Origin: Faecalibacterium sp. I3-3-89
GTDB taxonomy: Bacteria > Bacillota > Clostridia > Oscillospirales > Ruminococcaceae
Reading direction: 5' to 3'
DNA length: 64,000 nucleotides
Assembly: GCF_023347275.1 (NCBI RefSeq)
Contig: NZ_CP094468.1
Span: forward strand, 2,666,001 to 2,730,000
The notes beneath the pieces are model-generated. The model was not told where the DNA came from, ran no database searches, and worked only from the letters and a program-made list of their open reading frames with translations. This document shows, in pieces, positions 40,025 through 59,226 of this stretch. The first letter of the stretch is position 1. Each line of letters begins with the position of its first letter. The translations under genes were made by a program, and so were the position numbers.

Positions 40025-40071
40025 ATTTACTTATCAACTGTTAGCTGACGGTTTCCGGGGTGCATACGGAC

Positions 40072-40112
40072 AAATCCCGTCTGATTTCTAACAGGATGTC
40101 AGACGGGATTTT
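40072..40112. terminator. Terminator-like hairpin
   Basis: AAATCCCGTCTGA / TCAGACGGGATTTT, 14-nt loop, just inside the element's left end; it may insulate element genes from thrS read-through. Confidence 0.75.
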
Positions 40113-40144
40113 CGCTTTATATTACGAATTATGGAGGACATACC

Positions 40145-40393: not shown

Positions 40394-40402
40394 CAACACG
40401 CT

Positions 40403-40432
40403 GCCCGCAGGAGAAAATCCTGCGGGCGTTTT
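40403..40432 (+). terminator. Terminator after DUF6061 gene
   Basis: GCCCGCAGGA / TCCTGCGGGC followed by GTTTTTG. Confidence 0.85.
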
Positions 40433-40435
40433 TGT

Positions 40436-41143: not shown

Positions 41144-41146
41144 ATA

Positions 41147-42172: not shown

Positions 42173-42846
42173 GGAGCCACCCCCGTTTCCAGACGATAGC
42201 CCATCCCACGAACCGCAACGATTCGCTGCTTCATCTCAAGACCGGACATCGTCTTTTTCAGCCTGGTCAGATTAACCTGCAAGGCATTTTCGTCTATGTA
42301 TTCCGTGGTTCCCCATAGTGCTATGCAAAGTTGCTCCGTCGTGACCAGAGCATCGCCGCCGGACAAAAGAGCAACCAACAGTTTTCCCTGATTTTTTGGA
42401 AGCACGACAGAGGTATTATGAATATAAAGCGTGTAGGTCTGCTGGTCTAACAGGAAATCTGGTCCCTCTATGAGATTGGTACGGCCTTCATACCTTTTGA
42501 GAATATTGGATACCCTGGCAAGAAGCCGGTCTTTTCTGCACGGCTTCGTCAAATATTCATCGGCACCCAAGTGGAACGCTTGCAGTTCATCCTTTACCTG
42601 ATCTCTGGAAGTTAGTACCAGGACGGGGATAGCGGTTTTATTCTTTAGTTCCTGGCAGATTTGAAAGCCACTGATCTCCGGCAAATTCAGGTCTAAGATC
42701 ACAAGGTCAGGACGGAGGGCTGCCAGGAGCCGAGCGGCATCTTCAAACTCGGTGATTGCCTCCGCAAGATACCCGTCCTTTTGGAGCATATTGCAGAGTT
42801 CTTCCCGCATATAGACTTCATCTTCCACAACAGCAATTCTTTTCAC
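42169..42846 (-). CDS. BceR-like response regulator
   Basis: 225 residues: receiver (VVEDE pocket, LVILDLNLPEISG, VLTSRD, EYLTKPC) and a winged-helix DNA-binding domain ending IVAVRGMGYRLE. The GTG at 42846 (VKRIAVVEDE) is the likely start, with GAAGGAGGTG upstream. It follows the permease fragment by 19 bases. Its target is probably the palindrome at 49339-49355. Confidence 0.9.
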   Translation of the reverse strand: MKRIAVVEDEVYMREELCNMLQKDGYLAEAITEFEDAARLLAALRPDLVILDLNLPEISGFQICQELKNKTAIPVLVLTSRDQVKDELQAFHLGADEYLTKPCRKDRLLARVSNILKRYEGRTNLIEGPDFLLDQQTYTLYIHNTSVVLPKNQGKLLVALLSGGDALVTTEQLCIALWGTTEYIDENALQVNLTRLKKTMSGLEMKQRIVAVRGMGYRLETGVAP

Positions 42847-42865
42847 GACAGCACCTCCTTCCAAA

Positions 42866-44777: not shown

Positions 44778-44848
44778 ACTAGCAGAGTTCCCATAAAACA
44801 GTATTTGCAAAAATTCCCACAATGGGGGAAGATTTGGCGTGACTTCGG

Positions 44849-46486
44849 TCACGCCTTTTCTTTTGCTTCCAGTTCATCCAGAGGGATATACCCCAGCCCA
44901 TCGTACTTGATATGGATGTGCTGCACCCGCTTTCCGCTGGACTTATCCGGGGCATCTACATAGATGGCCGACACCAGTTCACGGAGAGCATAAGGGGTGA
45001 GTTCTTCAATATGAACGTATTTGTGCGCTTTCTGGACGAACTTCTCAATATTCTCGATCTGCTGTTCCTGTACTTCGATTTCCTGCTGGATAGAAAGGGC
45101 TTCCTCTTCCAGATGCTTCTGTTCGGCATCGTAGCTCTGGCTCATCATGTCAAAGCGTTCATCGCTCAGCTTTCCGCTGGCGTTATCCTCGTAGATTTTC
45201 ATGAACAGCCGTTTGAGGTCTGCAATCCGCTTCTCATTCCGGGCAAGCTGCTTCTTCAGGACGGTCAGCTTTTCGGTGCTTTCCACCCGAAGCTGCTCCT
45301 CCATGACCTTGCGGAAGTAGTCTTCATGACGGAGAATGTAGTCCGTCACCCGCTGAACATGACTCAGTACACGTCCTTCCAGAACCTTTACTCGGATGAA
45401 GTGTCCCTTGCACTTGCTCCCGTTCTTCTTGTGCAGAGAGCAATCAAAGAAGTCTTGACTGAAGTCCCTGTTGTTGGACGAACCATATTGCATCTTGGAA
45501 CCGCAGTCAGCGCAGTAGACCATACCGGAGAAAATGCTGCTCTTGCCTGTCCGGGTCATGCGGTGACGCTGGTTACGAATCTCCTGAACCTTTTCAAACA
45601 CATCATCGTCAATAATGCGCTCATGTGTATCCGGGAAGATAGCCTGATTTTCCACAGGATTCAAATGTCTCTTTTTATCCCAGATAGAGTTAGTATAGGT
45701 CTTGAAGTTGACTGTGCAGCCAGTGTACTCCCGGCGTTCCAGAATCAAACTTACTGCTCTTTTATCCCAGCGGTAAGGGTCTTCCGGGGCAGGTGCGTTT
45801 GTACTCCGGCCATGGCTCAGCTTGTAGGCGGTGGGAGTCAGAACATTGTCCACCCACAGTTGGTTTGCAATTTGGGTCGGGCCACGTCCCTCCATGCACA
45901 TGGAGAAGATGCGCTTCACAATCGCAGCCGCTTCCGGGTCAACAAGCCAATGCTTCGGGTTCTCCGGGTCTTTTACATAGCCGTACGGAACATTGACCGT
46001 CAGCGGCACTCCACGCTCTCCCTTGGCCTTCTGGACAGCCCGAATCTTGCGGCTGGTATCGCGGGCGTAAAACTCGTTGAACCAGTTCTTAATACCCGCA
46101 AAATCGTTGTTTACGCTGTTCGGGTCAATGGTGTCGTAATTGTCGTTAATGGCAATGTAGCGAACGCTATACTGGGGAAAGGTAAAGTTTGTGTACAGAC
46201 CCGTCAAGGCAGAGTTGCGCCCCAGTCGGGACAGGTCTTTCGTGATAACGATTCCTACACGCCCTGCTTCGATCTCGACCAGCATACTCTGAAAGCCGGG
46301 GCGGTCATAGTTCGTGCCGGAGTAGCCATCATCCACAAAGAACACTGGGTTCGGGAAGTGGTTCTTTTTGGCGTATTCCAGAAGGATAGCCTTCTGGTTC
46401 TCAATGGACAGGCTTTCGCCGAGCCGTGCGTCCTCTTGCGACAGTCGGCAGTAAAGTGCGGTGATCTTATTCGTTGCTCCAGACAT
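44849..46486 (-). CDS. Large serine recombinase of the nested element
   Basis: 545 residues: resolvase domain with catalytic Ser16 (ITALYCRLS) and KDLSRLGRN, a recombinase domain (GVPLTVNVPYGYVKDPENP), a zinc ribbon (YCADCGSKM...C...KC) and a coiled-coil C-terminal region. This is the TndX/TnpX group, which excises and integrates elements through a circular intermediate. ATG 46486 has AGGAGG upstream; a longer in-frame start exists but has no RBS. Differs clearly from the outer element's recombinase. Confidence 0.95.
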   Translation of the reverse strand: MSGATNKITALYCRLSQEDARLGESLSIENQKAILLEYAKKNHFPNPVFFVDDGYSGTNYDRPGFQSMLVEIEAGRVGIVITKDLSRLGRNSALTGLYTNFTFPQYSVRYIAINDNYDTIDPNSVNNDFAGIKNWFNEFYARDTSRKIRAVQKAKGERGVPLTVNVPYGYVKDPENPKHWLVDPEAAAIVKRIFSMCMEGRGPTQIANQLWVDNVLTPTAYKLSHGRSTNAPAPEDPYRWDKRAVSLILERREYTGCTVNFKTYTNSIWDKKRHLNPVENQAIFPDTHERIIDDDVFEKVQEIRNQRHRMTRTGKSSIFSGMVYCADCGSKMQYGSSNNRDFSQDFFDCSLHKKNGSKCKGHFIRVKVLEGRVLSHVQRVTDYILRHEDYFRKVMEEQLRVESTEKLTVLKKQLARNEKRIADLKRLFMKIYEDNASGKLSDERFDMMSQSYDAEQKHLEEEALSIQQEIEVQEQQIENIEKFVQKAHKYVHIEELTPYALRELVSAIYVDAPDKSSGKRVQHIHIKYDGLGYIPLDELEAKEKA

Positions 46487-46569
46487 TGTTGTGTCCTCCT
46501 TACTCTGTGGAGCAACTGTCAGTACAGGATTGGTTAACGGGTCAAGTATAGCAGAATTAGGCGCAGTTG

Positions 46570-47034
46570 TCATTCGTCTGCACCCTCATCTTCAAATTTT
46601 TGCTGGGCGTTCTTGGCAACAATGCGCTCCAGCTTCTTCAAAAAGGATTCCTTGCCCTCATAGCTGCCGGTCACGGTGTAGGTGGTGTGACCGACTTTCT
46701 CCGTGGTGGTCAGTTCTGGAATCCAGAAAGCGGACAGATTCTTGACATGGAGGTTGCCGTTCTCATCTACATAGGAGCCGTGCTTCTTCTGCTCTTCGGT
46801 CAAGGGCTGCCGCTTGAAATAGATTTCATTTTCGGAGATGCTCACGGTTTCGCTGGCCTGCTCCTTCGGGGTATCGTCATACAGCTGGGCGAAAAATGCC
46901 AGTGCATCTTCGGGTGAGTCTTCCTCCATGAGCTGCTCGAAAATCTGCTGTTCCTCTGCCGAGAGGTTATTCCATGCGGCTTCCAACTCCTGCTCGTTGG
47001 CTGCGTTGACAAAGGCTTCGATCTCTTTTTTCAT
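46570..47034 (-). CDS. Element-encoded acidic protein with TnpW-like C-terminus
   Basis: 154 residues, acidic and helical in the first ~75 (FVNAANEQELEAAWNNL, EEQQIFEQLMEED). The C-terminal segment KVGHTTYTVTGSYEGKESFL resembles the small transposon protein TnpW found beside Tn4451-type recombinases. Function unknown, perhaps modulating excision. RBS AAAGGAGG. It lies 83 bases upstream of the recombinase start, in the same direction. Confidence 0.72.
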   Translation of the reverse strand: MKKEIEAFVNAANEQELEAAWNNLSAEEQQIFEQLMEEDSPEDALAFFAQLYDDTPKEQASETVSISENEIYFKRQPLTEEQKKHGSYVDENGNLHVKNLSAFWIPELTTTEKVGHTTYTVTGSYEGKESFLKKLERIVAKNAQQKFEDEGADE

Positions 47035-47210
47035 GGTGCATCCTCCTTTGGCTGCGAAAAGCGTTTTTTCAAAAAGTATGGGTTTTCGTGAGAGCAAGAA
47101 TCGTCCCGTGGCCACAAATTTTCAATTCTTGAAAATTTCCTGCCCCTTTGGGACAGCTTCTTGTTGGGGCGTGCCTGCCCCAAACCCTGCCAGATAAAAG
47201 CAAAGGGGCA

Positions 47211-47627
47211 TTATCTGCCCCGATGCTTTTCCTTTCGCTTCTGCTGTTTCAGTTCAAATTGACGCTGCTTTTCTGCTTCGCGTTGTTTACGGCTAAGTGC
47301 TTTTCGCACCAGCTTGTTTTCTTCTCGCTGCATTTGCAACGCCTGCTGTGATTTTGTGCCGATTCCTGTGGCAGCTGTTTCCTTTCGGATTTGCCGTTGC
47401 AATCGCTTTGGATTCACAGACTCTTTCTTTACAACTGTCTCAACAGATGGACTGAAGCGCAGCCGACTGTAATTCTTGAGCAGATACTCCAAGACTTCAT
47501 AGTCCTTTGGTTCTGCGCCAAACACGACTTTACACACTGAAAGCTTTCTTCTCTCAATACGCTCAAACACTCCAATCCAGAATGGAGCCTCAAAAAACAC
47601 AGTCAGCTTTGTAGAATCAATGTCCAT
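47211..47627 (-). CDS. yjdF: YjdF-family protein (DUF2992)
   Basis: 138 residues. KLTVFFEAPFWIGVFER and VCKVVFGAEPKDYEVLEYLL are the YjdF hallmark, followed by a Lys/Arg-rich helical tail (KRLQRQIRKETAATGIGTKS). YjdF is linked to tolerance of azaaromatic compounds and is typically preceded by the yjdF-motif riboswitch, which seems present here. RBS AGGAGGG. Confidence 0.9.
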   Translation of the reverse strand: MDIDSTKLTVFFEAPFWIGVFERIERRKLSVCKVVFGAEPKDYEVLEYLLKNYSRLRFSPSVETVVKKESVNPKRLQRQIRKETAATGIGTKSQQALQMQREENKLVRKALSRKQREAEKQRQFELKQQKRKEKHRGR

Positions 47628-47631
47628 AACG

Positions 47632-47750
47632 AAACCCTCCTGAAATAAATCCTTACAGGAATGGACAACCCGGAGGGGAAGGTTACTTACCTACACCGTG
47701 CGGTGCAGACGGCTGGGCTACCTACCAGCTCTAGCATCTCTCAGGAAGAA
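47632..47750 (-). promoter_or_regulatory. Probable yjdF-motif (azaaromatic) riboswitch
   Basis: The minus-strand leader contains GAGCTGGTAGGTAGCCCAGC, GCACCGCACGGTGTAGGTAA and, near the start codon, TCCTGTAAGGATTTATTTCA before AGGAGGG, so several short stems end at the RBS. Position immediately before yjdF and translation-level layout match the yjdF motif. The assignment rests on gene context and recall, not a covariance search. Confidence 0.65.
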
Positions 47751-47890
47751 ATGCGTTGCGTTTTTATCCTGCTTTTATTATATAAAGCACATCCCTGTGC
47801 ATTATATCTACCTTAATTGGTTTTCCAAGTGAAGTATACCACACTCGTGGTCAAATGACCACCCATATATACGAGAATTTGACCGTTTTA

Positions 47891-47931
47891 CTGCGTACGT
47901 GCGTACCAACCTTCCGTACGCATGTACGCAG
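47891..47931. repeat. GTACG inverted repeat
   Basis: CTGCGTACGTGCGTAC (47891-47906) and GTACGCATGTACGCAG (47916-47931) are inverted copies with one mismatch in 16 and a 9-nt spacer. The same GTACG(C/T)ATGTACGCAGC block occurs at 54893-54909 in the outer element. Confidence 0.75.
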
Positions 47932-47967
47932 CGATTCGCCCGAAACGAACCCCATACCACCGTTCCC

Positions 47968-48045
47968 CCTCGGAGAGCCCACTACACTTTGCAGACAGCA
48001 GGGCTGAAAGTGTCATAGTGGGTTATTACACTTCCGCAGAAGTGC
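47968..48045 (+). other. oriT copy 1 (MobV type) in the nested element
   Basis: An ACACTTT...AAAGTGT inverted repeat is followed by TAGTGGG/TTA (expected nick between 48022 and 48023) and a CACTTC-CGCA-GAAGTG hairpin. The stretch is near-identical to 55688-55766: 31 bases from ATAGTGGG to GAAGTGC are the same in both copies. Confidence 0.75.
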
Positions 48046-48168
48046 CTTTTCCTCGCCGCAAACAGCCGGGGTGCGCCTTTGTGAGAGCCTTTTGTGTGGC
48101 GAATCCACATCGCCCACAGGCGATGTGAGCAGGGATTCCAAGGGGGCGCAGCACCCCTTGGCACACGG

Positions 48169-48194
48169 ACTTTGGTACAAAGTCTAGTGTGTTA
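48169..48194 (+). other. Second oriT-like nick region (pMV158-like)
   Basis: ACTTTGGTACAAAGT (inverted repeat), then C and TAGTGTG/TTA (nick expected between 48191 and 48192). As I recall it, pMV158 has the same order: ACTTT/AAAGT arms and TAGTGTG/TTA. Confidence 0.5.
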
Positions 48195-48228
48195 CACCTT
48201 GATAGAGGTGTACAGAATCCTGATATGC

Positions 48229-48271
48229 AAAAAGCCCCATGCCAACACCTTGATGGTGCGGACATGGGACT
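48229..48271 (-). terminator. Terminator facing bceAB transcription
   Basis: On the minus strand a 17-bp imperfect stem (AGTCCCATGTCCGCACC with GGTGTTGGCATGGGGCT) is followed by TTTTT. It would stop transcripts entering from bceA and the bceB fragment. Confidence 0.75.
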
Positions 48272-48366
48272 TGATGCTTCCTCGGCCTAGCCGGATACTC
48301 GTAACCAATCCTGACTGGCAGTTGCCGTGTCATTTCTCGAAAACTGTTTTACGGATACCCCGCACT

Positions 48367-48524
48367 GCGTCACTCTCCATTTTCTGCAAAAAGAGCATCA
48401 CATCTTGAGTGGAGATGGAAAGAATCATGTAAAAGGCAACAATAGAAATCACCAGGGAGCTGAAAAACAGACCGTTTTCCTTTCGGCTGCGGCGGCTGTT
48501 CCGAAGAATGAGATTAGAGAACAT
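48367..48524 (-). pseudogene. BceB-like permease, N-terminal fragment
   Basis: About 53 codons (MFSNLILRNSRRSRKENG..., one membrane helix) followed by a short element-derived tail and a stop at 48330. The sequence continues at 44777 (see the C-terminal part). Its ATG overlaps the end of bceA by 11 bases. Confidence 0.9.
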
Positions 48525-49281
48525 TTGCGCTGCCCCCTCCCAGTTGCGCCATCACCTTCAGGATGCGCCCGTAGAACTCCTGCTGGCTTTCGTCTCCACG
48601 CCGAAGCTCATGAAAGATCACGCCATCCTGGATGAACAGGATGCGCTTACAGAAGCTGGCGGCATTGGAATCATGGGTTACCATCAGGATCGTAGCTTGT
48701 TCGTCACGATTCAGGCCGGACAGCTTCTCCATAAGACTTCTTGCGTTCTTAGAATCCAGCGCACCCGTCGGTTCATCGGCAAGGATCATTTGGGGATGTA
48801 AGATCAGAGCCCTTGCTGCCGCAACACGCTGACGCTGGCCGCCGGACATCTTGGACGGAAACTTATCCAGAACATCAGTGATTTCCAGATAGTCAGCCAA
48901 CTGCTTCAGCCGCTGGCTGCTTTCTGCTTCGGATACCCCATGCAAGGAAGTCGGGAGCAGGATGTTTTCCCTGCCAGTCAGGTTGTCCAGCAATTCAAAG
49001 TTCTGGAATAGATAACCAACTTTTTTGCCACGGTACTCTGCAAGAGCCTTTCCCCTGAGGGATTGCAGAGTATCGCCCTCCACCTGAATGCTTCCACCGG
49101 TGGGCTGAATCACAGTTGCAATACAGTTGAGAAGCGTGGATTTACCGGAACCACTGCTTCCCATAATGCCGAGAAACTCTCCCGGCATCACCTGGAGGGT
49201 GATCCCATTCAGTGCATTTGTTTGACTTGGCACATTGCCATAGATTTTTGTTAAATTTTCAATATTCAAAATGGGTTTCAT
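48514..49281 (-). CDS. BceA-like ABC transporter ATPase
   Basis: 255 residues: Walker A GSSGSGKST, Q-loop FQNFELL, ABC signature SGGQRQRVAAARAL, Walker B ILADEPTGALD and H-loop VTHD. It belongs to the MacB/BceA group that powers peptide-antibiotic resistance transporters. RBS GGAGGTATT. The promoter carries a BceR-like palindrome. Its permease partner is disrupted, so function is doubtful unless the nested element excises. Confidence 0.95.
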   Translation of the reverse strand: MKPILNIENLTKIYGNVPSQTNALNGITLQVMPGEFLGIMGSSGSGKSTLLNCIATVIQPTGGSIQVEGDTLQSLRGKALAEYRGKKVGYLFQNFELLDNLTGRENILLPTSLHGVSEAESSQRLKQLADYLEITDVLDKFPSKMSGGQRQRVAAARALILHPQMILADEPTGALDSKNARSLMEKLSGLNRDEQATILMVTHDSNAASFCKRILFIQDGVIFHELRRGDESQQEFYGRILKVMAQLGGGSANVL

Positions 49282-49309
49282 GTGAATACCTCCTATCATT
49301 TGTAATAAA

Positions 49310-49355
49310 ATGATAGCATGGGAACACAGCAAATACCACTTACAGTTGTTGTAAG
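49310..49355 (-). promoter_or_regulatory. bceA promoter with BceR-like operator
   Basis: CTTACA-N5-TGTAAG palindrome (49339-49355) abuts a weak -35 (TGGTAT, 49333-49338, minus) with -10 TATCAT (49310-49315), spacer 17. A weak -35 next to an activator site is the arrangement of BceR-dependent promoters. Confidence 0.6.
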
Positions 49356-49358
49356 GAT

Positions 49359-50546
49359 TCAGGATATAAGTGGCGGCTCAAGGGGGACGAGCATATATTT
49401 TTTAAGAGCATCAGGCGACAATGATAAAATATACCGGATCGCCTCATTGGCAAACCAGTTCGTTTTAATTGTATCCCAATCAGCAAGCCGAATGATTTCT
49501 GCTGTGCCGTTCTCAAAATCAACTGATATTTCGCCCCATTCGCCGTCGCAGTCTGCCTGGTATTCGTAGATTGCGGCGGTGATTTTCTTTTTGCGCTTGG
49601 TTTTGGATTTCTGTTTCAGCCGGACTGCATGGATAGCACCCTCGGCAACCAAAAACTCCGTCAGCTTGTCCACTGCTTTCCGGTAGGCTCGCTCTGCACC
49701 GCTGGCTGTGCTGCCCTCAAACATAACCGCCAGTTCTTCAAAGGTGGGGCGGTTCTTCCATGAGCCGACACGCCCACAGGTCATACAAATCGCCAGCCGC
49801 TTTTCAAGCAAGGTTTGCTCCCGGTAATTCAGTTTCTCAAATGCCCGCTGCACCTTTTCAGCCTGTATGCCGTTCCAGAGGATGTCGGTATAGTTCCATG
49901 TATCATCAAGGGCAACATCTTCACCTGTTTCCTCGCCATCCTCGTCCGTTACATAGAATGGCTGCTGATTGCGGATGCCACGGACTACTTTCAGGTATCC
50001 TTCCGCAAGGGCAAGGTCGCAGTTGTATTTCTTTGCAAATTCACTGACCGCATCCTTGGTGTTATGGTACAGCCACGCCATTGACCGCACCATTTTGTAA
50101 TTGGTCAGAGAGGATACCGACCATTTTTCTTCGCCCATGCGGAAACGGAGCATAGCATCCCGAATGAACGGAAAAATGTATGTTGCATACTCCGCACCTT
50201 TGGCAGGAGCATAGTCCATCAGCTTTTGGAGCATTTGCTCCCGGCAGGACAGTTTTATATCCAGAAAACGGTCTGTGTCGTATCGATTGCCGCCATCCAC
50301 ACCGAGAAAGGTTTTGATGCGCTTGTTAAGTTGCAGCTCGTAGTGGTGGAGAAAGAATGAGAAATATTTCAAGTCTTTTTCCCGTAGGGCAGACAGGATA
50401 TATTCGTTCGGATTGTCTACTGTAGGCGGTTCCGGTTCCAGCTGGAAGATGCGCTCTGCAACATAGGGTGGGATGCCATCATCGGATGGATTGACAGCGT
50501 GTTTCGGTATGTATCCGGTCATATTCCATGAAAAATCATTCAGCAT
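49359..50546 (-). CDS. Element protein with sigma-factor-like C-terminal HTH
   Basis: 395 residues, not matched to a named family. The C-terminal half includes FEKLNYREQTLLEKRLAICM and TFEELAVMFEGSTASGAERA, which resembles the sigma-70 region 4 helix-turn-helix, followed by a very basic stretch (LKQKSKTKRKKK). The N-terminal half is helical. It may be a regulator of element genes. RBS GAAGGAGGTG. It lies between the cargo operon and the other leftward accessory genes. Confidence 0.65.
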   Translation of the reverse strand: MLNDFSWNMTGYIPKHAVNPSDDGIPPYVAERIFQLEPEPPTVDNPNEYILSALREKDLKYFSFFLHHYELQLNKRIKTFLGVDGGNRYDTDRFLDIKLSCREQMLQKLMDYAPAKGAEYATYIFPFIRDAMLRFRMGEEKWSVSSLTNYKMVRSMAWLYHNTKDAVSEFAKKYNCDLALAEGYLKVVRGIRNQQPFYVTDEDGEETGEDVALDDTWNYTDILWNGIQAEKVQRAFEKLNYREQTLLEKRLAICMTCGRVGSWKNRPTFEELAVMFEGSTASGAERAYRKAVDKLTEFLVAEGAIHAVRLKQKSKTKRKKKITAAIYEYQADCDGEWGEISVDFENGTAEIIRLADWDTIKTNWFANEAIRYILSLSPDALKKYMLVPLEPPLIS

Positions 50547-50610
50547 AGCGCACCTCCTTCCAGTTTAGTAATACTCATAAATATCCCGTGATCAACTAAT
50601 GGGTTATTTA

Positions 50611-51555
50611 TTACTTTATTTTCTTTAACATACGGTGATAAATAGGTGCATTTGGTGCAGGAGTTGTGATTGGGAGCAGAAGTCCCTCTTTGATAAATTG
50701 TTCCACACGCAAAGCAATCCACCCATCACCGATCCCTAATTGATTCTTTCCAAGAACCTGTCCAACAAGCACGCTTTCCCTAAACTCGTCGTCCAGTGTA
50801 TCCAATTCTCGAAGAATAAATGTATCATACAGAGTTTCTGATACGCTGACCAGTTTGCCGTTTATAACAGCACGAAGAGGAGAATTTTCCTGTTGGAGTT
50901 CTCTCCAGCGGTTAGCCAAACTACGAAGGTAATTTGTTGGCAACTTCTTCCCAAGAGATGCCATCCGTCCCAAGTGATAAGGTTCAACTTCTCCCCAACC
51001 GTTATACTGGACAATGCATCCATCTGGTCTTGTTTCCCACATTGGAAGCTCCACAATGGTAATATCCAATTTTTCAAAGCCGATTGGTCGTAGTTGTTCC
51101 AGAAGCCAATACAATCCGCACACATCATCTGGGTCTCGTCCGACCCAAACACGAATCGGCTCTCCGTTTTGTGCTTTTTCCAGTAGTGTAGCATAGTTCT
51201 TTCGGGATGTATTGAGAAGTTTAGTTACGATTTCAGATGCCATATCGGGCAGTATGCTTAGTAGCAAAGATAATGCCGACTCACGCTCCAAACAAATTCC
51301 TGCTTCGGAGATGTTGCCCACAGACAATGCCAGCGGAAGATTAACTATGTCCTTACGATTTCCTTCCAACGGTATAGCATTCTCCCAACCAGAACGCTCC
51401 CGTTCTTCTGCTTGATGCTGGAACTTTTCTATTTCTTCTTTTGAAACTGTCCCATCAGAGATAATTACACTGGTTGCTCCGCCTAAAAAACCCTTATGTC
51501 CAATCGCAACCGCCATAGTCCCTGCGGCACTGTCGCTAAATACTACTTCTAACAT
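50611..51555 (-). CDS. DUF1835/DUF3658-domain protein
   Basis: 314 residues. The N-terminus MLEVVFSDSAAGTMAVAIG matches the DUF1835 strand/loop, with RVWVGRDPDDVCGLYWLLEQ in the middle and a C-terminal winged-helix-like DUF3658 part (TLDDEFRESVLVGQVLGKNQ). Such proteins occur near stress or mobile genes; function unknown. ATG 51555 is supported by AGAGGTG; an upstream GTG is possible. Confidence 0.75.
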   Translation of the reverse strand: MLEVVFSDSAAGTMAVAIGHKGFLGGATSVIISDGTVSKEEIEKFQHQAEERERSGWENAIPLEGNRKDIVNLPLALSVGNISEAGICLERESALSLLLSILPDMASEIVTKLLNTSRKNYATLLEKAQNGEPIRVWVGRDPDDVCGLYWLLEQLRPIGFEKLDITIVELPMWETRPDGCIVQYNGWGEVEPYHLGRMASLGKKLPTNYLRSLANRWRELQQENSPLRAVINGKLVSVSETLYDTFILRELDTLDDEFRESVLVGQVLGKNQLGIGDGWIALRVEQFIKEGLLLPITTPAPNAPIYHRMLKKIK

Positions 51556-51580
51556 AACGTTGCTCACCTCTTAGCTAAAT

Positions 51581-52684
51581 TCAAATTCTTTTTATTGCTT
51601 CTTTCTTCAACGCAGCCTGTCCCATTTCTTTTTCATAATCACCCTTGGCGTAAGCGACATTGCTCAGCGCCCGAAGCATCTTATCTTTCGCCAGTTTTTT
51701 CATAACCTCTGCAAGATCAGCGTCCAGAGCGCCACGCTTCACATAGCGGTTTATGGTATTCAGTCGCTTCTCATAAATCTGTTTCAGCGGATGATCGTCC
51801 GCAAGTTCCCGCTGTTCTCTGCCTTTCAGGTTACCGATCTGCCGGCAGGTGCGGTGCAGCTTGTCCCCCGGAGCGTAGCCGCCGCAGTATTTGGTGTGCC
51901 TTGCATTGGTGGTCAGAAACCATTTGCCGCAGATTTTGCATTTTTTCGGTGCATGGCCAACACACAGGCCCTCAAAGAGATCAGACCGGAACATCCCCAC
52001 AAAGGATACATAGTGCATCCGCTTGACCAGCTTCGCAACTTTTTCGCCGGGACGGATGACGGATACATACTGAACGGAATTGTTCAGGGTAGACATCCAG
52101 GCATTGCCCTCCGTGATGGAAAACTCCGGCGGGAAATAATTGCCGAACATTCTGGCAAAGCCCTCTGCGGTACGGTCAGCTTCGTTGCCGTCTGATTTTT
52201 CTGCAAAATCAAGCATGGTCGTTTGGTATTCCCCAAGGGAGTATGCCAGATGCCCGAAAACTGCGGTATAGCGTTGGAGCATCATCGCATCGGCAAAGTT
52301 CTGGATTTCTTCAAATTGCAAAGAATTGGTTGCGGCTTTTATGGCAAACTCCACATATTTCAGCGCATTGTCCACAGTAAAGACTTTTTCAATCCGTTCT
52401 CTGTGCTTTGAGATATTCATATAGGAGAACGGCGGTGTTTGACTGAGAATATCAAGCATCGTCAGAGCAGCTTCCGTTGCAATAGGACAGAGTGCAGAAG
52501 CATCCTGTCCGGCGTTTAATATTCCAAGCAGCAGATTGATTTTCTCGCATTGCTCGTTCATCTTTGCGATGGTATCCGCAGGGACATTCAGCGCATCACA
52601 GGCAAGAGCGCCGACAGGAAGTGTTTTTCCCTCATATATGACCGTATCCTGCCAAAAATCCAATGTCATCAGTTCTTGGTTCAT
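51581..52684 (-). CDS. DUF6076-like protein with C-terminal zinc finger
   Basis: 367 residues. Mostly helical, with a Cys4-like finger near residue 255 (CKICGKWF...HTKYCGG...C) and a basic helical tail (RYVKRGALDADLAEVMKKLA). It resembles the DUF6076 group found on integrative elements; probably DNA- or RNA-binding. No clear RBS other than GGAGGGG upstream of 52684. Leftward, probably co-transcribed with the DUF1835 gene. Confidence 0.7.
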   Translation of the reverse strand: MNQELMTLDFWQDTVIYEGKTLPVGALACDALNVPADTIAKMNEQCEKINLLLGILNAGQDASALCPIATEAALTMLDILSQTPPFSYMNISKHRERIEKVFTVDNALKYVEFAIKAATNSLQFEEIQNFADAMMLQRYTAVFGHLAYSLGEYQTTMLDFAEKSDGNEADRTAEGFARMFGNYFPPEFSITEGNAWMSTLNNSVQYVSVIRPGEKVAKLVKRMHYVSFVGMFRSDLFEGLCVGHAPKKCKICGKWFLTTNARHTKYCGGYAPGDKLHRTCRQIGNLKGREQRELADDHPLKQIYEKRLNTINRYVKRGALDADLAEVMKKLAKDKMLRALSNVAYAKGDYEKEMGQAALKKEAIKRI

Positions 52685-52766
52685 GCTTGCCCCTCCTGTC
52701 CTGTTTTTTCATTTTCTTAATTCTATCATGCTAATGTAAAGAAATCTACATCTATCCATAAGTTGT

Positions 52767-52905
52767 CCTGTTTTTTGAAACGGGGTTGTCCTCCGATTAG
52801 CCTGTTTTTTGAAAAATCCGGCATAACAATAGTAGACGGAGCGAAGCACCTGCCAATCACGGCGGGTGTTTCGTGCTTTCTGAATACTATGAACGGAGGT
52901 TTTCT
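52767..52905 (+). promoter_or_regulatory. Leader of the primase operon: direct repeats and hairpin
   Basis: CCTGTTTTTTGAAA occurs twice (52767-52780 and 52801-52814, 34 bp apart). A GU-containing hairpin (GAAGCACCTGCC with GGCGGGTGTTTC) lies near 52844-52875. Candidate operator and leader structure for the rightward replication genes. Confidence 0.4.
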
Positions 52906-53526
52906 ATGACAATCTATGAAACCATCAAGGTGGCAATCAGCGTAAAGCAAGCCGCCGAACACTACGGGCTGAAAGTCAACCGAAACGGCATGGCTTGCTG
53001 CCCGTTCCACAATGACAGGCATCCGAGCATGAAGCTGAATGAGGATTATTTCTTCTGCTTTGGCTGCGGAGTCAAGGGGGATGTGATCGACTTCGTGGCA
53101 AGGTCGTTCGATCTGAGCAGCTATGAAGCAGCGCAAAAGCTGGCTTCGGACTTCGGACTTGACCCGAAACCGCCCACTGCCGCAGCTATGGCCAAGCTCA
53201 AACGTCCCTATATCCGTCAGTTCCGGGAGGATGAAATGCTGTGCTTCCGGGTGCTGACGGATTATCTGCATCTGCTGGAAGATTGGAAAGTACGATACGC
53301 ACCCAAGACACCGGAAAATGCTCTGGATGATCGTTTTGTGGAAGCCTGCCAGATGCACTGCCATATCGAATATATGGCAGACGTGCTGACCGTGGGCGAT
53401 CTGGAAGAACGGGTGGCATTGGTGGACAAGCTGATGAAGGAGGGCAAGATTGCTTTTCTGCAAGAGTACACCGCACGAAAGAAGAAGGAGGTGGCGTACC
53501 ATGGCGAAGAACCGAAAAACGCCTGA
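52906..53526 (+). CDS. CHC2 zinc-finger primase-like protein
   Basis: 206 residues. The CHC2 finger CCPFHNDRHPSMKLNEDYFF...CFGCG matches the DNA-primase zinc domain; no TOPRIM core follows, so it is a stand-alone finger protein, as on many Firmicutes IMEs. It would help prime replication of the excised element with the helicase encoded next. RBS ACGGAGG before 52906. Overlaps the next gene by 26 bases. Confidence 0.9.
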   Translation: MTIYETIKVAISVKQAAEHYGLKVNRNGMACCPFHNDRHPSMKLNEDYFFCFGCGVKGDVIDFVARSFDLSSYEAAQKLASDFGLDPKPPTAAAMAKLKRPYIRQFREDEMLCFRVLTDYLHLLEDWKVRYAPKTPENALDDRFVEACQMHCHIEYMADVLTVGDLEERVALVDKLMKEGKIAFLQEYTARKKKEVAYHGEEPKNA

Positions 53527-54874
53527 TATGAACTTGCCCATGTGGTTTGATGGGCAGAACATCAACGAAGCTCTGTTTTGTGAAGAATTTCTGCATGAGC
53601 GCAGAATCATCTTTGCAAACGGAGCTTTTTTCACGCCCGATGGTAGAGTGACGGACGATCTCCCATTGCGTGGGGAGATTTACGACAAGCTGAAATTCTG
53701 TGCTGCGAACAATATCCCACGGAAGATCACCAACATTCTGGAAGTGCTGAAACTGGAAGCACAAGTGCCGGACTTTCCGCCGGAGCAGGATCGCATTCAT
53801 GTGTCCAACGGTACGCTGCTGCTGAACGGAACATTTACCGAGGGCAGACCGGCTATCGTGCGAAGTCGTCTGCCTGTTGCTTACAATCTCGATGCTACTG
53901 CGCCGGTGATCTGGCTGAACTTTCTGGATGGGCTGCTCCATGCGGAGGACATCCCCACTTTGCAGGAGTTCATTGGCTACTGTCTGATTCCCTCCAACAA
54001 AGGTCAGCGCATGATGGTGATTAAGGGCAACGGCGGTGAGGGCAAATCCCAAATCGGTGCGGTGCTGTCCACCATCTTCGGCACGAATATGAAAGACGGC
54101 AGCATCGGGAAGATTTCTGAAAACCGTTTTGCCCGTGCCGATCTGGAACACATCCTGCTGTGCGTGGATGATGATATGCGGATGGAAGCTCTGCGTCAGA
54201 CCAACTATGTAAAATCCATCGTGACTGCACAGGGCAAAATGGACTTGGAACGCAAGGGCAAGCAGAGTTATCAGGGCTGGATGTTTGCCCGGTTGCTGGC
54301 ATTCAGCAATGGTGATCTGCAAGCCCTGTATGACCGCAGCGACGGCTTTTACCGCAGACAGCTTGTACTGACTACCAAGGAAAAGCCCGTGGGCAGAGCC
54401 GACGATCCCGACCTTGCTGAGAAGATGAAAGCCGAAGCTGAGGGCATCTTCCTGTGGGTGTTCGAAGGATTGCAGCGGCTCGTTGCCAACAACTTTAAGT
54501 TTACGGAGAGTGACCGTATCCGGGAAAACCGGGAAGCGGTCAAGCGTGACAACAACAATATCTTTGATTTCATGGATTCCGAGGGATATATCCGGCGTAA
54601 AGCGGATGCGTCCATCAGCTCCAAGGATTTCTATGAAATCTATCGGATGTGGTGCGAAGAAAATTCCCTTGCACCGCTGAAAGCCCGCAGCTTCAGCGAC
54701 GCCATGATTGCCAATGCCAAGAAATTCAATCTGGAACATTGCAACAACATCACCAACTCTGCCGGACGGCGGGTGTGGGGATTTATGGGTGTGGAAGCTG
54801 TGGCAAGGCCTCATATAAATGGGTTTTACGATGTTTCGTCATGTACGTACGTACCGGAGGAATGGCGGGATTGA
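53501..54874 (+). CDS. P4-type primase/helicase (DUF5906)
   Basis: 457 residues. SF3/P4-type ATPase features: Walker A GNGGEGKSQIG near residue 180, Walker B-like ILLCVDDDM, and sensor MFARLLAFSNGD. C-terminal winged-helix-like region. RBS AAGGAGG inside the upstream gene. With the CHC2 protein it forms a minimal replication module for the element. A GTACG-type palindrome lies at the end of the gene. Confidence 0.88.
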   Translation: MAKNRKTPDMNLPMWFDGQNINEALFCEEFLHERRIIFANGAFFTPDGRVTDDLPLRGEIYDKLKFCAANNIPRKITNILEVLKLEAQVPDFPPEQDRIHVSNGTLLLNGTFTEGRPAIVRSRLPVAYNLDATAPVIWLNFLDGLLHAEDIPTLQEFIGYCLIPSNKGQRMMVIKGNGGEGKSQIGAVLSTIFGTNMKDGSIGKISENRFARADLEHILLCVDDDMRMEALRQTNYVKSIVTAQGKMDLERKGKQSYQGWMFARLLAFSNGDLQALYDRSDGFYRRQLVLTTKEKPVGRADDPDLAEKMKAEAEGIFLWVFEGLQRLVANNFKFTESDRIRENREAVKRDNNNIFDFMDSEGYIRRKADASISSKDFYEIYRMWCEENSLAPLKARSFSDAMIANAKKFNLEHCNNITNSAGRRVWGFMGVEAVARPHINGFYDVSSCTYVPEEWRD

Positions 54875-54909
54875 TTTTGCCAGTCATGCTCTGTACGTAT
54901 GTACGCAGC
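54840..54909. repeat. GTACG palindromes near the replication genes
   Basis: CATGTACGTACGTACC (54840-54855, overlapping the gene end) and GTACGTATGTACGCAGC (54893-54909) match the pair at 47891-47931 in the nested element, but with a 37-bp rather than 9-bp spacer. Iteron-like; a possible origin of replication. Confidence 0.5.
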
Positions 54910-55273
54910 ATTTACCCCTGTTTTCTCCCATTATAGGAAACAACGGCTTTCAGAGACAACCTGTTTTCGGGTATTGAAAATCAATGGCAATGGAAACAGC
55001 AAAGTTTTTGACCGCAGGACGAAGCTATTTCACGAAATCGTGCTTCTCTGAACCGTGTACCCTGTTCACGGAACAATAGATGTTTTCATTTTTCCAGACC
55101 AAATCACACGAAACAGTAAAGCGGGATATGGTCATATATGGACAGGACATCACAAGCAAAATTCTGAACGGATTTCAGAGATTGCAGATTTTTCACTGTT
55201 CGGTGTATCTGCTCCGTTTTGGGGTGCAGAGATTGTACCGAACCACAAACAGAATTATGGAGGATTTTTCAAT
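54910..55273 (+). other. Intergenic region without gene
   Basis: No convincing gene. Two small hairpins are visible (GAAGC...GCTTC around 55022-55047; CCGTG/CACGG around 55053-55071). A GGAGGA RBS for the next gene ends it. Confidence 0.6.
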
Positions 55274-55489
55274 ATGAATGTACGCAATGAAATCAAGGCA
55301 CAGATCATCCGTGCTGGGATGACCATGCAGGAAGTTGTTGACCTGCTCTCGGACGAGTACGGATGGAGCGACAGCGTTTCCAACCTGTCCGCAAAATTAC
55401 AGCGGGAAAGCATCCGATACAAGGAAGTATTGGAGCTTGCCGATGTGCTGGGATGCGACATTGTATGGCAGCAAAGACGGGAGAAGTGA
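55274..55489 (+). CDS. Small helix-turn-helix-like protein
   Basis: 71 residues, MNVRNEIKAQIIRAGMTMQE...LLSDEYGWSDSVSNLSAKLQ...RYKEVLELADVLGCDIVWQ. The order of helices and the 'AGMT..EV' and 'S..NLS.KL' pattern resemble Cro/CI-like DNA-binding proteins of mobile elements. Likely a regulator of replication or transfer genes. RBS GGAGGA. Confidence 0.65.
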   Translation: MNVRNEIKAQIIRAGMTMQEVVDLLSDEYGWSDSVSNLSAKLQRESIRYKEVLELADVLGCDIVWQQRREK

Positions 55490-55815
55490 TGCCCCCGGCA
55501 ACAGCCCCTCGCATCTCCCGTCCCCATAGGCACACCGCAGTGCTGCCTATGGATGGCAGTGAAAGACGCTGCCAACGTCTGCAAGAAACGTTCCGCAGAA
55601 CAGCTTCATGCAGACGGGCTGACCATGGGAAAAGTTGCAGACATTTTGCCTTGGTCAGCAGAGGTCACCGCAGTGACCGCACACCCCCTCGGGAGAGCCC
55701 ACGGCACTTTGCAGCCAGAATGGATGAAAGTGTTATAGTGGGTTATTACACTTCCGCAGAAGTGCATCCCCGCAGCCCCGCCCGTCTGCTACTCTCGAAA
55801 GAAAGGAAAAAACCT
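55490..55815 (+). other. Region before the relaxase gene, holding oriT
   Basis: 326 bases without a supported gene. The 61-codon frame at 55553-55738 lacks an RBS and runs into oriT, so I do not call it. Confidence 0.6.
55688..55766 (+). other. oriT copy 2 (MobV type), cognate to the relaxase
   Basis: CACTTTGCAG...GAAAGTGT arms, TAGTGGG/TTA (nick expected between 55742 and 55743) and a CACTTC-CGCA-GAAGTG hairpin, about 50 bases before the MobV start. Same layout as the copy at 47968-48045. Confidence 0.8.
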
Positions 55816-57105
55816 ATGGCAAGAAACGATGGAATTGACCGTACCTTTGCCCGTAACCAGGACTTGCCCACCCTCGACGATGTGGCGAAAGTTCAGGAGC
55901 ATAACGAGCGAGAAAAAGACAGCTACTCCAATCAAGATATTGATACCACCCAGACCCACCGCAATGTCCACTTCAAGAAACCTACCGACAGCTATGCCGC
56001 CATGTTCGATCAGATGATTGCAGATGGTGTTATCTCCACCCGTGGTCTGAAAGCCGATGCGGTGAAATATGGGGAGCTGCTGTTTGATGTAAACTCTGCC
56101 TACTTCCACAACCACGGCGGCTATGAATATGCCAAACAGTTCTATGCCGATGCCTACAAAGCCGCCGTGGAGATTGTGGGCGGTGAGCAGTATATCCTCT
56201 CCGCTGTAATGCATGCCGACGAGCGCAACCGGGCAATGTCGGAAGCTCTGGGTGAGGATGTGTACCACTATCACCTTCATGTGGTTTATATCCCGGTGGT
56301 GGAGAAACAAATCCTGTGGTCGAAGCGATGCAAGGATGAATCCCTCCGGGGAACGGTAAAGGAAACGATCACACAGGTCAGCCGCAGTAAGAAGTGGGAA
56401 TCCAAACCCGTTCTTGATGAAAACGGAAATCCGATGTTGAACGCAAAAGGGAAAAAGATTTTGAAGTCGTCCTACAGTGTGCTGCAGGATGACTTTTTTA
56501 ATTTCATGCGAGCCGCCGGATATACCGATGTGGAGCGTGGAGAGCGTGGCAGTACCGAGGAACATCTGACGGTGACACAGTTCAAGGTACAGGCCGAACA
56601 GCAGCGTTTGGAAGCTGTGACCGGACAGGTGACACAGGCCGAGCAGAGCTTAGCGGATGCCAAAGCTGCCACGGAGAAGCAGAAAAAGAAACTGGAAGCG
56701 CTGAAAAAGGAAACTCAAGCTGCTAAGTCTGTTGCTATGACTGCACATGAGATTGAGTCGATGGGCAAGAAAAATCCCATTACGGGAAATGTTACCATGA
56801 CGGCGGATGAGTGCCGCACGCTAAAGGATTATGCGGTCAGCAGCTTTGCGGAAAAGTCTGAGAAGCTGAAATACAAGCAGAAATTCGAGCAGGCAGATAA
56901 AAACGCAAAGATATGGAAAGACCGTTTTGAAAAACTGAACAAAGACTATGAGGAGCTGAAACAGAAAGCCCAGCCTTTCCTGGATGCGATTGAGATTGCA
57001 TCTGAAAAGGTCTGGGCTTTTATCAATGCCATCCTCGCCAGGGGAAAGGAACTGTATGAACACAAACACCCTGCCCGCAATCGTGGACAGGACATGGAAA
57101 TTTAA
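55816..57105 (+). CDS. MobV-family relaxase (Mob/Pre)
   Basis: 429 residues. N-terminal relaxase domain with HRNVHFKKP, a conserved AVMHADER and HYHLHVVYIPVV (metal-binding His), followed by a long coiled-coil C-terminal half (~residues 260-400). MobV proteins nick oriT in pMV158-type plasmids and IMEs. ATG 55816 follows GAAAGGA. Full length. The matching oriT precedes it. Confidence 0.92.
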   Translation: MARNDGIDRTFARNQDLPTLDDVAKVQEHNEREKDSYSNQDIDTTQTHRNVHFKKPTDSYAAMFDQMIADGVISTRGLKADAVKYGELLFDVNSAYFHNHGGYEYAKQFYADAYKAAVEIVGGEQYILSAVMHADERNRAMSEALGEDVYHYHLHVVYIPVVEKQILWSKRCKDESLRGTVKETITQVSRSKKWESKPVLDENGNPMLNAKGKKILKSSYSVLQDDFFNFMRAAGYTDVERGERGSTEEHLTVTQFKVQAEQQRLEAVTGQVTQAEQSLADAKAATEKQKKKLEALKKETQAAKSVAMTAHEIESMGKKNPITGNVTMTADECRTLKDYAVSSFAEKSEKLKYKQKFEQADKNAKIWKDRFEKLNKDYEELKQKAQPFLDAIEIASEKVWAFINAILARGKELYEHKHPARNRGQDMEI

Positions 57106-57123
57106 GAAAGGAACTATTTGCCT

Positions 57124-57426
57124 ATGAAGAAAACCGTAGAGGAAATTAACAAGATGATTATGGAAGATGCCCCGATGGAAGAAATCAACGATGCCATCGG
57201 CTATATTGATATTTGCTCCTGCTTCGATCCGATTTTTGAGCCGCCTATTGATTTTCTGGAAGAATGCCGCAAGCGTTGGGAAGCGGCACAGTCCTCTTTC
57301 TGCAAAACCATTGAGTGCAAGATCGGAAACACATGGTATGTGATTGAAACGGAGTGTGACGGAAATGAGCCACTTACCGACAAGGTAAAACGGCTCATTT
57401 TTTCTGACAAGGGGGTGATTTGTTAA
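57124..57426 (+). CDS. Small element protein (unknown)
   Basis: 100 residues, MKKTVEEINKMIMEDAPMEE...DICSCFDPIFEPPIDF...ECKIGNTWYVIETECDG. The C-terminal part (IGNTWYVIETECDG...DKVKRLI) resembles the TnpW-like segment in the nested element. Acidic. ATG 57124 used; a TTG two codons upstream has better RBS spacing. Lies between relaxase and recombinase. Confidence 0.65.
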   Translation: MKKTVEEINKMIMEDAPMEEINDAIGYIDICSCFDPIFEPPIDFLEECRKRWEAAQSSFCKTIECKIGNTWYVIETECDGNEPLTDKVKRLIFSDKGVIC

Positions 57427-57506
57427 TGACTGCGACACAAAAGCATGATATAATTCCAATATGCACAACGGTACTGTCGGCTGACCAACCACCGAAGGAG
57501 GATATT

Positions 57507-59153
57507 ATGTTGGATCAGCAGAAAATTACCATTCTCTATTGCCGTCTGAGCAACGAGGATGCCCAGGAAGGCGAGAGTAACAGTATCGCAAATCAGAGAG
57601 AGTATTTAACCCGATATGCCCGTGACCACGGATATACAAACCTGAAAATTCTGGTGGATGACGGTTATACGGGGACGAACTTCAATCGTCCCGGTGTGCA
57701 GGAAGGCTTTGAGCTTGTCAAGCAGGGGCTTGTGGGCTGCTGGCTGGTCAAAGACCTCAGCCGCTTTGGTCGTGACTATCTGACTGTTGGACAATATACG
57801 GATATTATCTTTCCGAGTTATGATGTCCGCTTTATCGCTATAAATGATGGCGTAGACAGCAACCGGGGAGACAGCGAGGGCTTCGCCGCAATCCGTAATC
57901 TGTTCAACGAGTGGTATCCCCGTGATACCAGCAAGAAAGTCCGTGTCAGTTTGCGGCAGAGAGGAACCAGTGGGAAGCACATGGGCAAACCGCCCTACGG
58001 ATACCGCTGTGACCCGGAGGACAAGGATCACTGGATTCTGGATGAAGAAGCGGCTCCGGTAGTCAAGCTCATCTTCGACCTTTGCATTGACGGCAAAGGC
58101 CCGGAGCAGATTGCAAGGATTCTGGAAGAAAAGCAGATTCTGACTGCAAAGGCACTCTATGCCAAGCGAAAGAAAAAGCCGATGCCGGAAAGACCGTACC
58201 ACTGGGGCAACCAGTCCATTGTAGGGATTTTGGAACGGCAGGAGTACACAGGCTGTACCTGCAACTTCAAGACTTATTCCAAGTCCTACAAGCTGAAAAA
58301 GCGGATTCCCAATGAGCCGGAGAATATGTTTTATCTGCCGGACACACAGGAAGCGATTGTATCTCAGGCACAGTTTGACAGGGTGCAGGAACTGAGGAAA
58401 AACAAACGCCGCCCTGCAAAAGCGGAACGGCAGGGATTGTTCTCCGGGCTTCTGTTTTGTGCCGATTGCGGCGGCAAGCTCCACTTTGCCACAAGCAAAA
58501 ACTTTGAGGGCAAGCAGGATCACTACGTCTGCAACAACTACAAGAGCAACCGTGGTACTTGTACTGCCCACTATATCCGGGAAGATGTGCTTCGTGAAAT
58601 CGTTCTGGAACGCATCCGGGCAGTCAATGAGTATATCCGAAGCGATGTGGACGGTTTTCAGGAGGAATGGCTGCAATGCCGCAGGACTGACCAGGAGCGC
58701 AGCATCCGGGATGACAAAAAGAAGCTGGAACAGGCAAAGAAACGCCTTGCCGATCTGGATGTCATCATCGCCCGGCTGTACGAGGACTATGTTCTTGGAA
58801 ATCTCAATCAGGACAGATACAGAAAGATGTCTGCGGACTATGAAGCGGAGCAGGAACGGTTAAAGCTCGAAATTGAAGTTATCGAAGAATGGGTGGAACA
58901 GCGGGAAGAAATGAACGACGGTCTGGATGCCTTTATCGCCCTGACACAGAAATATGTGGATGTGGAGGAGCTGACACAGACCATCGTGAACGAGTATATC
59001 AAGAAAATCATCGTCTATGCCCCGGACAAATCCAGCGGCAAGCGCAAGCAGAAAGTGAAGATTTTCTTCAACTTCGTGGACGATGTAGATATTCCCGTTA
59101 TTTCCGAGCCTATCATCACGCAAACAACCTATGAACACAGAAAAACGGCGTGA
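57507..59153 (+). CDS. Large serine recombinase of the outer element
   Basis: 548 residues: resolvase domain with catalytic Ser15 (ITILYCRLS), KDLSRFGRD, a recombinase domain (GKHMGKPPYGYRCDPEDKD), a zinc ribbon (LFCADCGGKLHF...C) and a coiled coil (residues ~390-480). Related to but distinct from the nested element's recombinase. RBS GAAGGAGG. Its stop lies about 50 bases from the right junction, the usual place for the integrating enzyme. Confidence 0.95.
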   Translation: MLDQQKITILYCRLSNEDAQEGESNSIANQREYLTRYARDHGYTNLKILVDDGYTGTNFNRPGVQEGFELVKQGLVGCWLVKDLSRFGRDYLTVGQYTDIIFPSYDVRFIAINDGVDSNRGDSEGFAAIRNLFNEWYPRDTSKKVRVSLRQRGTSGKHMGKPPYGYRCDPEDKDHWILDEEAAPVVKLIFDLCIDGKGPEQIARILEEKQILTAKALYAKRKKKPMPERPYHWGNQSIVGILERQEYTGCTCNFKTYSKSYKLKKRIPNEPENMFYLPDTQEAIVSQAQFDRVQELRKNKRRPAKAERQGLFSGLLFCADCGGKLHFATSKNFEGKQDHYVCNNYKSNRGTCTAHYIREDVLREIVLERIRAVNEYIRSDVDGFQEEWLQCRRTDQERSIRDDKKKLEQAKKRLADLDVIIARLYEDYVLGNLNQDRYRKMSADYEAEQERLKLEIEVIEEWVEQREEMNDGLDAFIALTQKYVDVEELTQTIVNEYIKKIIVYAPDKSSGKRKQKVKIFFNFVDDVDIPVISEPIITQTTYEHRKTA

Positions 59154-59184
59154 CCTTCGGGTCACACCGTTCTCTGCGACAAAA

Positions 59185-59226
59185 TAGTTACTTGTCACTA
59201 TTAAGCCTTTGGCTGAGGGGATTTTT
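59185..59226. other. Right junction of the 19.2 kb element (terminal repeat plus right half of split terminator)
   Basis: Terminal repeat 59185-59207, then GGCTGAGGGGATTTTT (59211-59226), the arm complementary to 39983-39998. Together the two arms make one thrS/trpS terminator. Confidence 0.8.

Follow-up and report, generated by a model that had tools for sequence, protein, structure and literature searches.

How might a small mobile element that encodes no relaxase travel between cells? The question is raised by a 64,000-nucleotide stretch of the Faecalibacterium sp. I3-3-89 chromosome (NZ_CP094468.1, positions 2,666,001 to 2,730,000; the whole stretch is called the window), in which an integrative mobilizable element with a MobV-type relaxase (the outer element, about 40005-59209) holds a nested element without one (the satellite, 44781-48364; 3,584 bp). 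The genome, G000 in our set, consists of one chromosome in one contig of 2,816,187 bases. We consider it probable that the satellite is an iOriT-type integrative mobilizable element (IME) of a formerly MobQ-bearing lineage, moved in trans by a co-resident MobV relaxase that acts on an origin of transfer (oriT) in the satellite; mobilisation in trans is what we infer from the sequences compared below.

A nested element with a recombinase and no relaxase

The ends of the satellite were set by an identical 3,584-bp copy elsewhere (L009) and three more intact copies in G000 (L010, L012 and L013), with a 2-bp core, CT, on each side; L014 is a deletion copy in the same genome. In the outer element, the insertion splits a gene for an FtsX-type ABC permease into pieces at 42866-44794 and up to about 48524. 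Altogether, G000 contains six relaxase-less satellites and five MobV elements, all with the same oriT type.

As a first-pass annotation of the window had proposed, the satellite has its own recombinase, a large serine recombinase of 574 aa (44849-46573, minus strand) with Resolvase, Recombinase, Zn_ribbon_recom and DUF4368 domains. Overlapping its start is the gene for a 181-aa partner protein (46570-47115, minus strand) for which neither NCBIfam nor Pfam named a family, the best match of the window protein being TnpW at 16 bits against a cut-off of 25. Its C-terminal part is weakly TnpW-like, which presumably likens the satellite to the Tn4451 family, though the similarity lies below the cut-off. 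The lack of a relaxase gene in the nested element, also claimed in that annotation, was upheld: a tblastn search of 22 satellite loci, with MobL, MobP and MobV proteins as queries, found no relaxase, only spurious matches of 22-79 aa, and there was none among the minus-strand open reading frames of six satellite copies. The short matches all came from three MobV reading frames that had been extended too far upstream; they were rejected as relaxases and are taken to be translated oriT. With room for 3-4 small genes, the satellite is also taken to have no mating-pair genes, although no search aimed at mating-pair families was made in it.

A MobV-type origin of transfer in the satellite

The satellite oriT (47965-48045, plus strand), recognised by sequence and fold, aligns without gaps to the oriT of the outer element (55685-55765, plus strand; predicted nick 55742/55743, from alignment and fold) over 81 nt at 88% identity. 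Both share a 31-base core, ATAGTGGGTTATTACACTTCCGCAGAAGTGC, without a mismatch (48015-48045 and 55735-55765; two matches, against 0.00 expected from 100 shuffles). The resemblance of the two regions noted at first pass is therefore real; the end of the second site, given as 55766, is corrected here to 55765. Beyond this oriT block (78-91 nt) the satellite and the G000 MobV loci have very little in common: the only other blastn matches were one of 60 nt in the recombinase and one of 44 nt in L016.

In a DNA fold of the satellite oriT, CCCACTA pairs with TAGTGGG in a hairpin that has an inner stem and, in its right arm, a 3-nt bulge (CCCACTACACTTT / AAAGTG-TCA-TAGTGGG, 47978-48022, plus strand; z-score -3.85, and -4.04 for the outer site). 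The IR3 hairpin of pMV158, as described in the accessible part of PMC5863519, has the same shape and is nicked between G and T at the 3' end of its right arm, so we predict a nick at 48022/48023 (G/T). The features of a pMV158-type IR3, so far as that text gives them, are all present: the hairpin, the 3-nt bulge in the right arm, G/T at the 3' end and IR1 inside. No reading frame downstream of the oriT, on the oriT strand, is common to all copies of the satellite, and the site is therefore hardly the promoter of a satellite gene. The conserved right end of the satellite follows the oriT.

The first-pass annotation had read this oriT as that of the host element, and here the comparison went the other way. 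The oriT of the window satellite shares 97.5% identity with that of another G000 MobV element, L011, and 88-90% with that of the outer element, while satellites L010 and L012 match L011 at 100% over the aligned oriT columns. We therefore rejected a copy taken from the outer element; judged by sequence, the likeliest helper is not the element that holds the satellite. The MobV proteins of L011 and the outer element are 58% identical.

Distribution across Faecalibacterium

We searched 31 Faecalibacterium genomes with a 78-nt oriT query, which matched 19 of them at 66 distinct sites (overlapping loci showed two of them twice, and each is counted once). A MobV reading frame follows 41 of these sites, its match starting 116-129 nt from the oriT start at 40 and 983 nt from it at one, and 20 sites lie in a relaxase-less satellite backbone. 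The remaining five are at contig ends (L138, L139 and L153) or partial (L179, beside a broken MobV, and L180). The exact 31-mer is present in 18 of 20 satellites and 17 of 41 MobV sites; for a 19-mer around the nick these counts are 18 of 20 and 38 of 41.

Eight genomes have satellites, all of them together with MobV-oriT elements, and 11 have MobV-oriT elements only. Satellites in strains without a matching MobV, named at first pass as evidence that would count against mobilisation in trans, were absent from the 31 genomes (co-residence in 8/8). In the other 12 genomes neither an oriT match nor a recombinase of 90% or more was found, though G004, G006 and G021 among them have a Mob_Pre protein. 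The genus has 21 recombinases at 90% or more, of which 20 are paired with an oriT and one (G013:C23) stands at a contig edge; 14 of the 21 run to full length with no stop. In G015 and G029 the pairing is inferred across an inserted element: the remainder of the satellite is far off, with another serine-recombinase gene between. The recombinase match starts at residue 56-57 in L024, L025, L126 and L134, as it does in L063, L086 and L092, and this spot in the gene may be a recurrent target of another element.

Recombination at Mob/Pre sites is a mechanism known from pMV158 and pUB110, and the satellite oriT could be a site of this kind (RSA-like), fusing the satellite circle to a MobV element with no independent transfer. 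The relaxase does belong to PF01076, the family of plasmid recombination enzymes, and the site resembles that of pMV158. Yet the 17 satellites with both flanks in view have serine-recombinase-type ends, and none of the 66 classified sites joins a satellite to a MobV gene at the oriT, in a classification that did not search for fusions as such; we give this account very little credence.

Three satellites of G028 (L147-L149) have an oriT left arm, CCCACGGCAC, that is otherwise found in outer-type MobV elements (such as L178, in the same genome), on a remainder of the satellite type; a recombinant oriT is possible. A wider, family-level search gave candidate oriT matches in 40 of 297 genomes, with at most three candidates scored per genome. 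The same oriT type also occurs in a Subdoligranulum variabile plasmid (OY725880.1; L201 5001-5990) with a partial MobV match (285/432 aa). Both stand between two predicted tet(W) genes, and the plasmid is typed as non-mobilizable.

Integration and movement

Identical 2-bp flanks were found at both ends of 15 of the 17 satellites with both flanks in view, L014 and L130 being the two that differ. In three empty copies of the L009 target (L182, L184 and L185), the flanks are only 2 bp apart. Together these are as expected of a serine recombinase with a 2-bp core, and many of the targets resemble imperfect dyads. The cores of L014 (5994-8385) and L130 are unlike on the two sides (ag/gt), which suggests recombination between two insertions.

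Identical copies of the satellite occupy different sites: G000 has two such pairs and G017 has one. Between genomes, L013 (G000) and L133 (G029) are 99.36% identical over 3,275 bp with different flanks, against 91% identity for thrS, and this near-identity points to recent spread between species, not to a route. We suggest that the recombinase excises the satellite, circularises it and reinserts it at sites sharing the 2-bp core; its ends, the empty sites and the several independent insertions all point to such a cycle. A co-resident MobV relaxase, not necessarily that of the host element, would then nick the circle at the MobV-type oriT, and the nicked satellite would presumably leave the cell through the mating apparatus of a conjugative element, the third in the chain.

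The satellite might travel only as cargo within larger elements, its oriT being incidental. The window copy does sit within a MobV element, and L009, L012 and L014 adjoin a MobP-type relaxase gene, in or beside a repeated target (the L009 gene matches PF03432 at 39 bits against 24.6). However, L010 and L013 are flanked by what read as ordinary chromosomal genes (from translations, without a family search), near-identical copies occupy different contexts in different species, and 20 of 20 evaluable copies retain the oriT. We consider carriage in cis alone unlikely as an explanation. The target shared by L009, L012 and L014 is a repeat of about 340 bp with a frame of 107-134 aa. It has unoccupied copies elsewhere (positions noted for the repeat in G000:C1 are 346674, 1274533 and 2285608), and a MobP-type gene adjoins it at all three occupied loci.

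Relatives and origin

Relatives of the recombinase were sought in one genome per species, and the best 80 of 104 were kept: nine from Faecalibacterium and 71 others. We counted the 42 others in which the start of the recombinase is in view with 2,600 nt or more upstream of it, leaving out 13 cut closer and 16 in which the recombinase match starts after residue 30. Within 3.5 kb, 33 of the 42 have a MobA/MobL match (a 108-aa stretch only in L047, weak in L056). One (L055) has a MobP-type relaxase, and eight have neither MobL nor MobP (L060, L061, L071, L079, L080, L095, L096 and L097). The L026 relaxase scores as MobQ (257 bits, cut-off 200) and as MobA_MobL (279 bits). Many MobL relatives carry a MobQ-type oriT, AAGGGCGCACTTCTATAC followed by a hairpin, which we take to resemble RSF1010-type sites. 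Retention of this ancestral oriT in the satellite was rejected, as a MobQ oriT profile found none in the six G000 satellites and the genus loci tested.

In a recombinase tree of 56 rows, built by a quick method, the 11 satellite rows form one clade (support 100) within a clade of 22 rows (97) whose other 11 members all carry MobL. Since the satellites are nested in a MobL-bearing clade and have a MobV oriT, loss of MobQ and gain of a MobV oriT is the simplest reading of anatomy and tree. The ancestors would have been integrative elements encoding a MobQ relaxase with a MobQ oriT, and the satellite lineage would have lost both. On balance, we slightly favour the broader proposal of a genus-wide hyperparasitic family, in which a MobQ lineage dropped its relaxase and took up a MobV oriT, giving three tiers: satellite, MobV element and conjugative element.

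Relaxase-less forms recur in this recombinase family, as another branch has a MobQ oriT without a relaxase beside relaxase-bearing relatives. In L077, L079 and L096 (more weakly in L080) there is a MobQ oriT and no MobL between it and the recombinase. These four branch near the base of the tree, so both loss and later gain of MobL stand as readings for them. Full-length MobL genes are present elsewhere in the genomes of L079/L096 and L080, and the L077 genome has only partial matches (about 40%); some MobL match occurs in seven of the nine genomes searched. The oriT core of L079/L096 differs at one position from that of MobL element L191 in the same genome, as does that of L077 from L192 in another genome. 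Two MobL stretches came from G324, with the MobQ oriT motif in L191 and not in L190.

Could the satellite instead be a decayed remnant, a MobQ element minus its relaxase whose oriT is a useless relic? Deletion, frameshift and split forms are known (L014, L149, L126 and L134), and there are relatives outside the genus without a relaxase or known oriT. Most genus recombinases are intact, however, the copies are recent and multiple, and the oriT class of the satellite is unlike the relaxase class of its relatives, so the site is not simply a relic of a MobQ ancestor. We regard such decay as very unlikely to account for the family.

Several results weigh against mobilisation in trans by a co-resident MobV. 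Satellites occur in 8 of the 19 genomes that have the oriT and in none of the 12 that lack it (Fisher P 0.012), but when only genomes of 90% completeness or more are taken, the counts are 8/17 and 0/5 (P 0.115); co-occurrence alone is therefore weak, and it is confounded by assembly quality and kinship. The first-pass annotation had asked whether the oriT always matches a co-resident MobV, and it does insofar as all eight satellite genomes have a MobV with a matching oriT. At the level of individual sites it does not: of 20 distinct satellites, 11 find their best oriT match in a genome other than their own (for nine it is equal), and strict genome-by-genome pairing of satellite and MobV oriTs was rejected for this reason. 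Within satellites, conservation of the oriT exceeds that of its surroundings only modestly (10/78 variable sites, compared with 28/110 upstream, 41/239 downstream and 7/80 in the right end), and in L014 and L140 the nick motif itself carries substitutions. A search of G000 with three families did not reveal a complete mating apparatus: VirD4 was above its cut-off but partial, the TraG P-loop was marginal (25.9 vs 25.8) and AAA_10 was below its cut-off. TraG and TraE families are reported in F. prausnitzii genomes generally, according to the accessible part of PMC6295017. Finally, L060, L061, L071, L095, L097 and L189 have no relaxase that we found and no recognised oriT, so loss of the relaxase can be plain decay, or these relatives have unknown oriTs. 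L061, in Pseudoflavonifractor phocaeensis An901 (7680 to about 11785), is a copy of about 4 kb with the same end type, no MobL and no recognised oriT; its genome also has two MobL elements (L035 and L037).

Cargo and neighbouring features

Between the gene for the 181-aa protein and the oriT is a cargo slot whose contents vary among copies. In the window it holds a gene for YjdF (DUF2992; 138 aa, 47211-47627, minus strand; PF11208, 181 bits) and an azaaromatic (yjdF) riboswitch, RF01764 (47645-47777, minus strand; 62.1 bits, gathering threshold 45), also confirmed at five other yjdF loci (L009, L132, L147, L148 and L149). Among 22 satellite loci, one backbone is combined with three cargo types: yjdF in six, a CPCC protein with a 144-aa protein in three and a 94-aa protein in 11, including the truncated L014, with none in view in the two that sit at contig ends. 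The variable slot thus holds cargo such as the riboswitch-controlled YjdF.

About 35 nt upstream of the oriT is a 15-bp inverted repeat, TGCGTACGTGCGTAC-N9-GTACGCATGTACGCA (47892-47930; fold z-score -6.31), present in 22 of 22 satellite loci examined. At up to two substitutions it was not found in MobV loci, save for a lone half-site within the outer element (at 54893) and a weak one in L176; it is possibly an accessory-protein or replication site. In plasmid and phage collections, no record had one place covering 80% of the satellite. As regards a possible phage satellite, which would be marked by packaging signals or phage-related genes, the proteins to which Pfam gave names include none of a phage family, and the DNA matches to phage records were short.

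The limits of the outer element were read from an empty site in G012 (L193), where the thrS and trpS flanks are joined save for 2 bp (window 40004 corresponds to L193 6633, and 59210 to 6636). Its relaxase, 429 aa counted from ATG (55816-57105, plus strand), matches Mob_Pre PF01076 at 107.7 bits (cut-off 25.5) and scores below the NCBIfam MobV equivalog cut-off (54.3 vs 100). Its large serine recombinase (57420-59153, plus strand) shares 41% identity with that of the satellite. Primase-like and D5-like replication genes (52873-54874, plus strand), named by reading translations without a family search, have homologues beside many MobV genes. Near the left end, 40444-41004 includes a 144-aa frame that reads as an IS200-type transposase, again from the translation without a family search; an STnc490 RNA match upstream of it is sub-threshold (50.3 bits, gathering threshold 56).

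Relation to known systems

A satellite in the gut bacterium Faecalibacterium thus probably moves between cells by means of a neighbour that hitchhikes in its turn, a concrete, countable case of a mobilizable element turning hitchhiker. A helper-dependent clade stands inside a relaxase-bearing one, the new oriT and its likely helpers are in one genome, and sister elements differ mainly in cargo. In a commensal genus whose genomes are very mobile, the system offers a setting in which the specificity of relaxases for an oriT could be tested, as could the notion of satellites of satellites. It suggests, too, a way for cargo such as riboswitch-controlled YjdF to pass from one species to another on an element of 3.6 kb that would escape surveys based on relaxases.

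In the accessible parts of the two sources, relaxase-less IMEs are known as mobilizable genomic islands (MGIs; PMC5704250) or iOriTs (PMC11389934), and their dependence on another mobilizable element had already been foreseen there. The category is therefore known, and what is new is the change from one relaxase class to another, together with a family that is multicopy and swaps its cargo; in titles and the beginnings of abstracts, we found no account of this Faecalibacterium family or of such a change.

With its own integration module and defined ends, an oriT and no relaxase, the satellite would count among the iOriT elements. As far as PMC11389934 was accessible, those are likewise integrative, carry an oriT without a relaxase and need the relaxase of an integrative and conjugative element (ICE) or another mobilizable element. 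The satellite differs in that its presumed helpers are other mobilizable elements, in its up to six copies per genome, in its swapped cargo and in an oriT class other than that of its relaxase-bearing relatives. Vibrio MGIs such as MGIVflInd1, from the portion of PMC5704250 available, also lack conjugation proteins and have a helper-related oriT and their own integrase; they are 18-33 kb long with a tyrosine integrase and an ICE helper, whereas the satellite measures about 3.6 kb, has a serine recombinase and would depend on a MobV helper that is itself mobilizable. The Tn4451 family, in the same text, shares a serine recombinase acting at 2-bp identical sequences with low insertion specificity, but Tn4451 encodes a MobV relaxase (TnpZ) and the satellite has no relaxase gene. 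MTnSag1 and tISCpe8, again in that portion of PMC5704250, are also very small relaxase-less IMEs, with a DDE transposase and an oriT probably unrelated to that of the helper. Staphylococcal oriT-mimic plasmids likewise mimic a helper oriT, though those in the accessible part of PMC8136818 are plasmids and not integrative. A cis-mobilizable element (CIME) has lost its integration genes and kept its att sites, unlike the satellite family with its mostly full-length recombinases. The MobQ elements of Oscillospiraceae and relatives (L026-L051 and others) have a recombinase of the same family (mostly 60-80%), the same 181-aa family and, in L035, L039 and L047 at least, a similar right end; they differ from the satellites in encoding a MobA/MobL relaxase and DUF3847 and in carrying a MobQ oriT.

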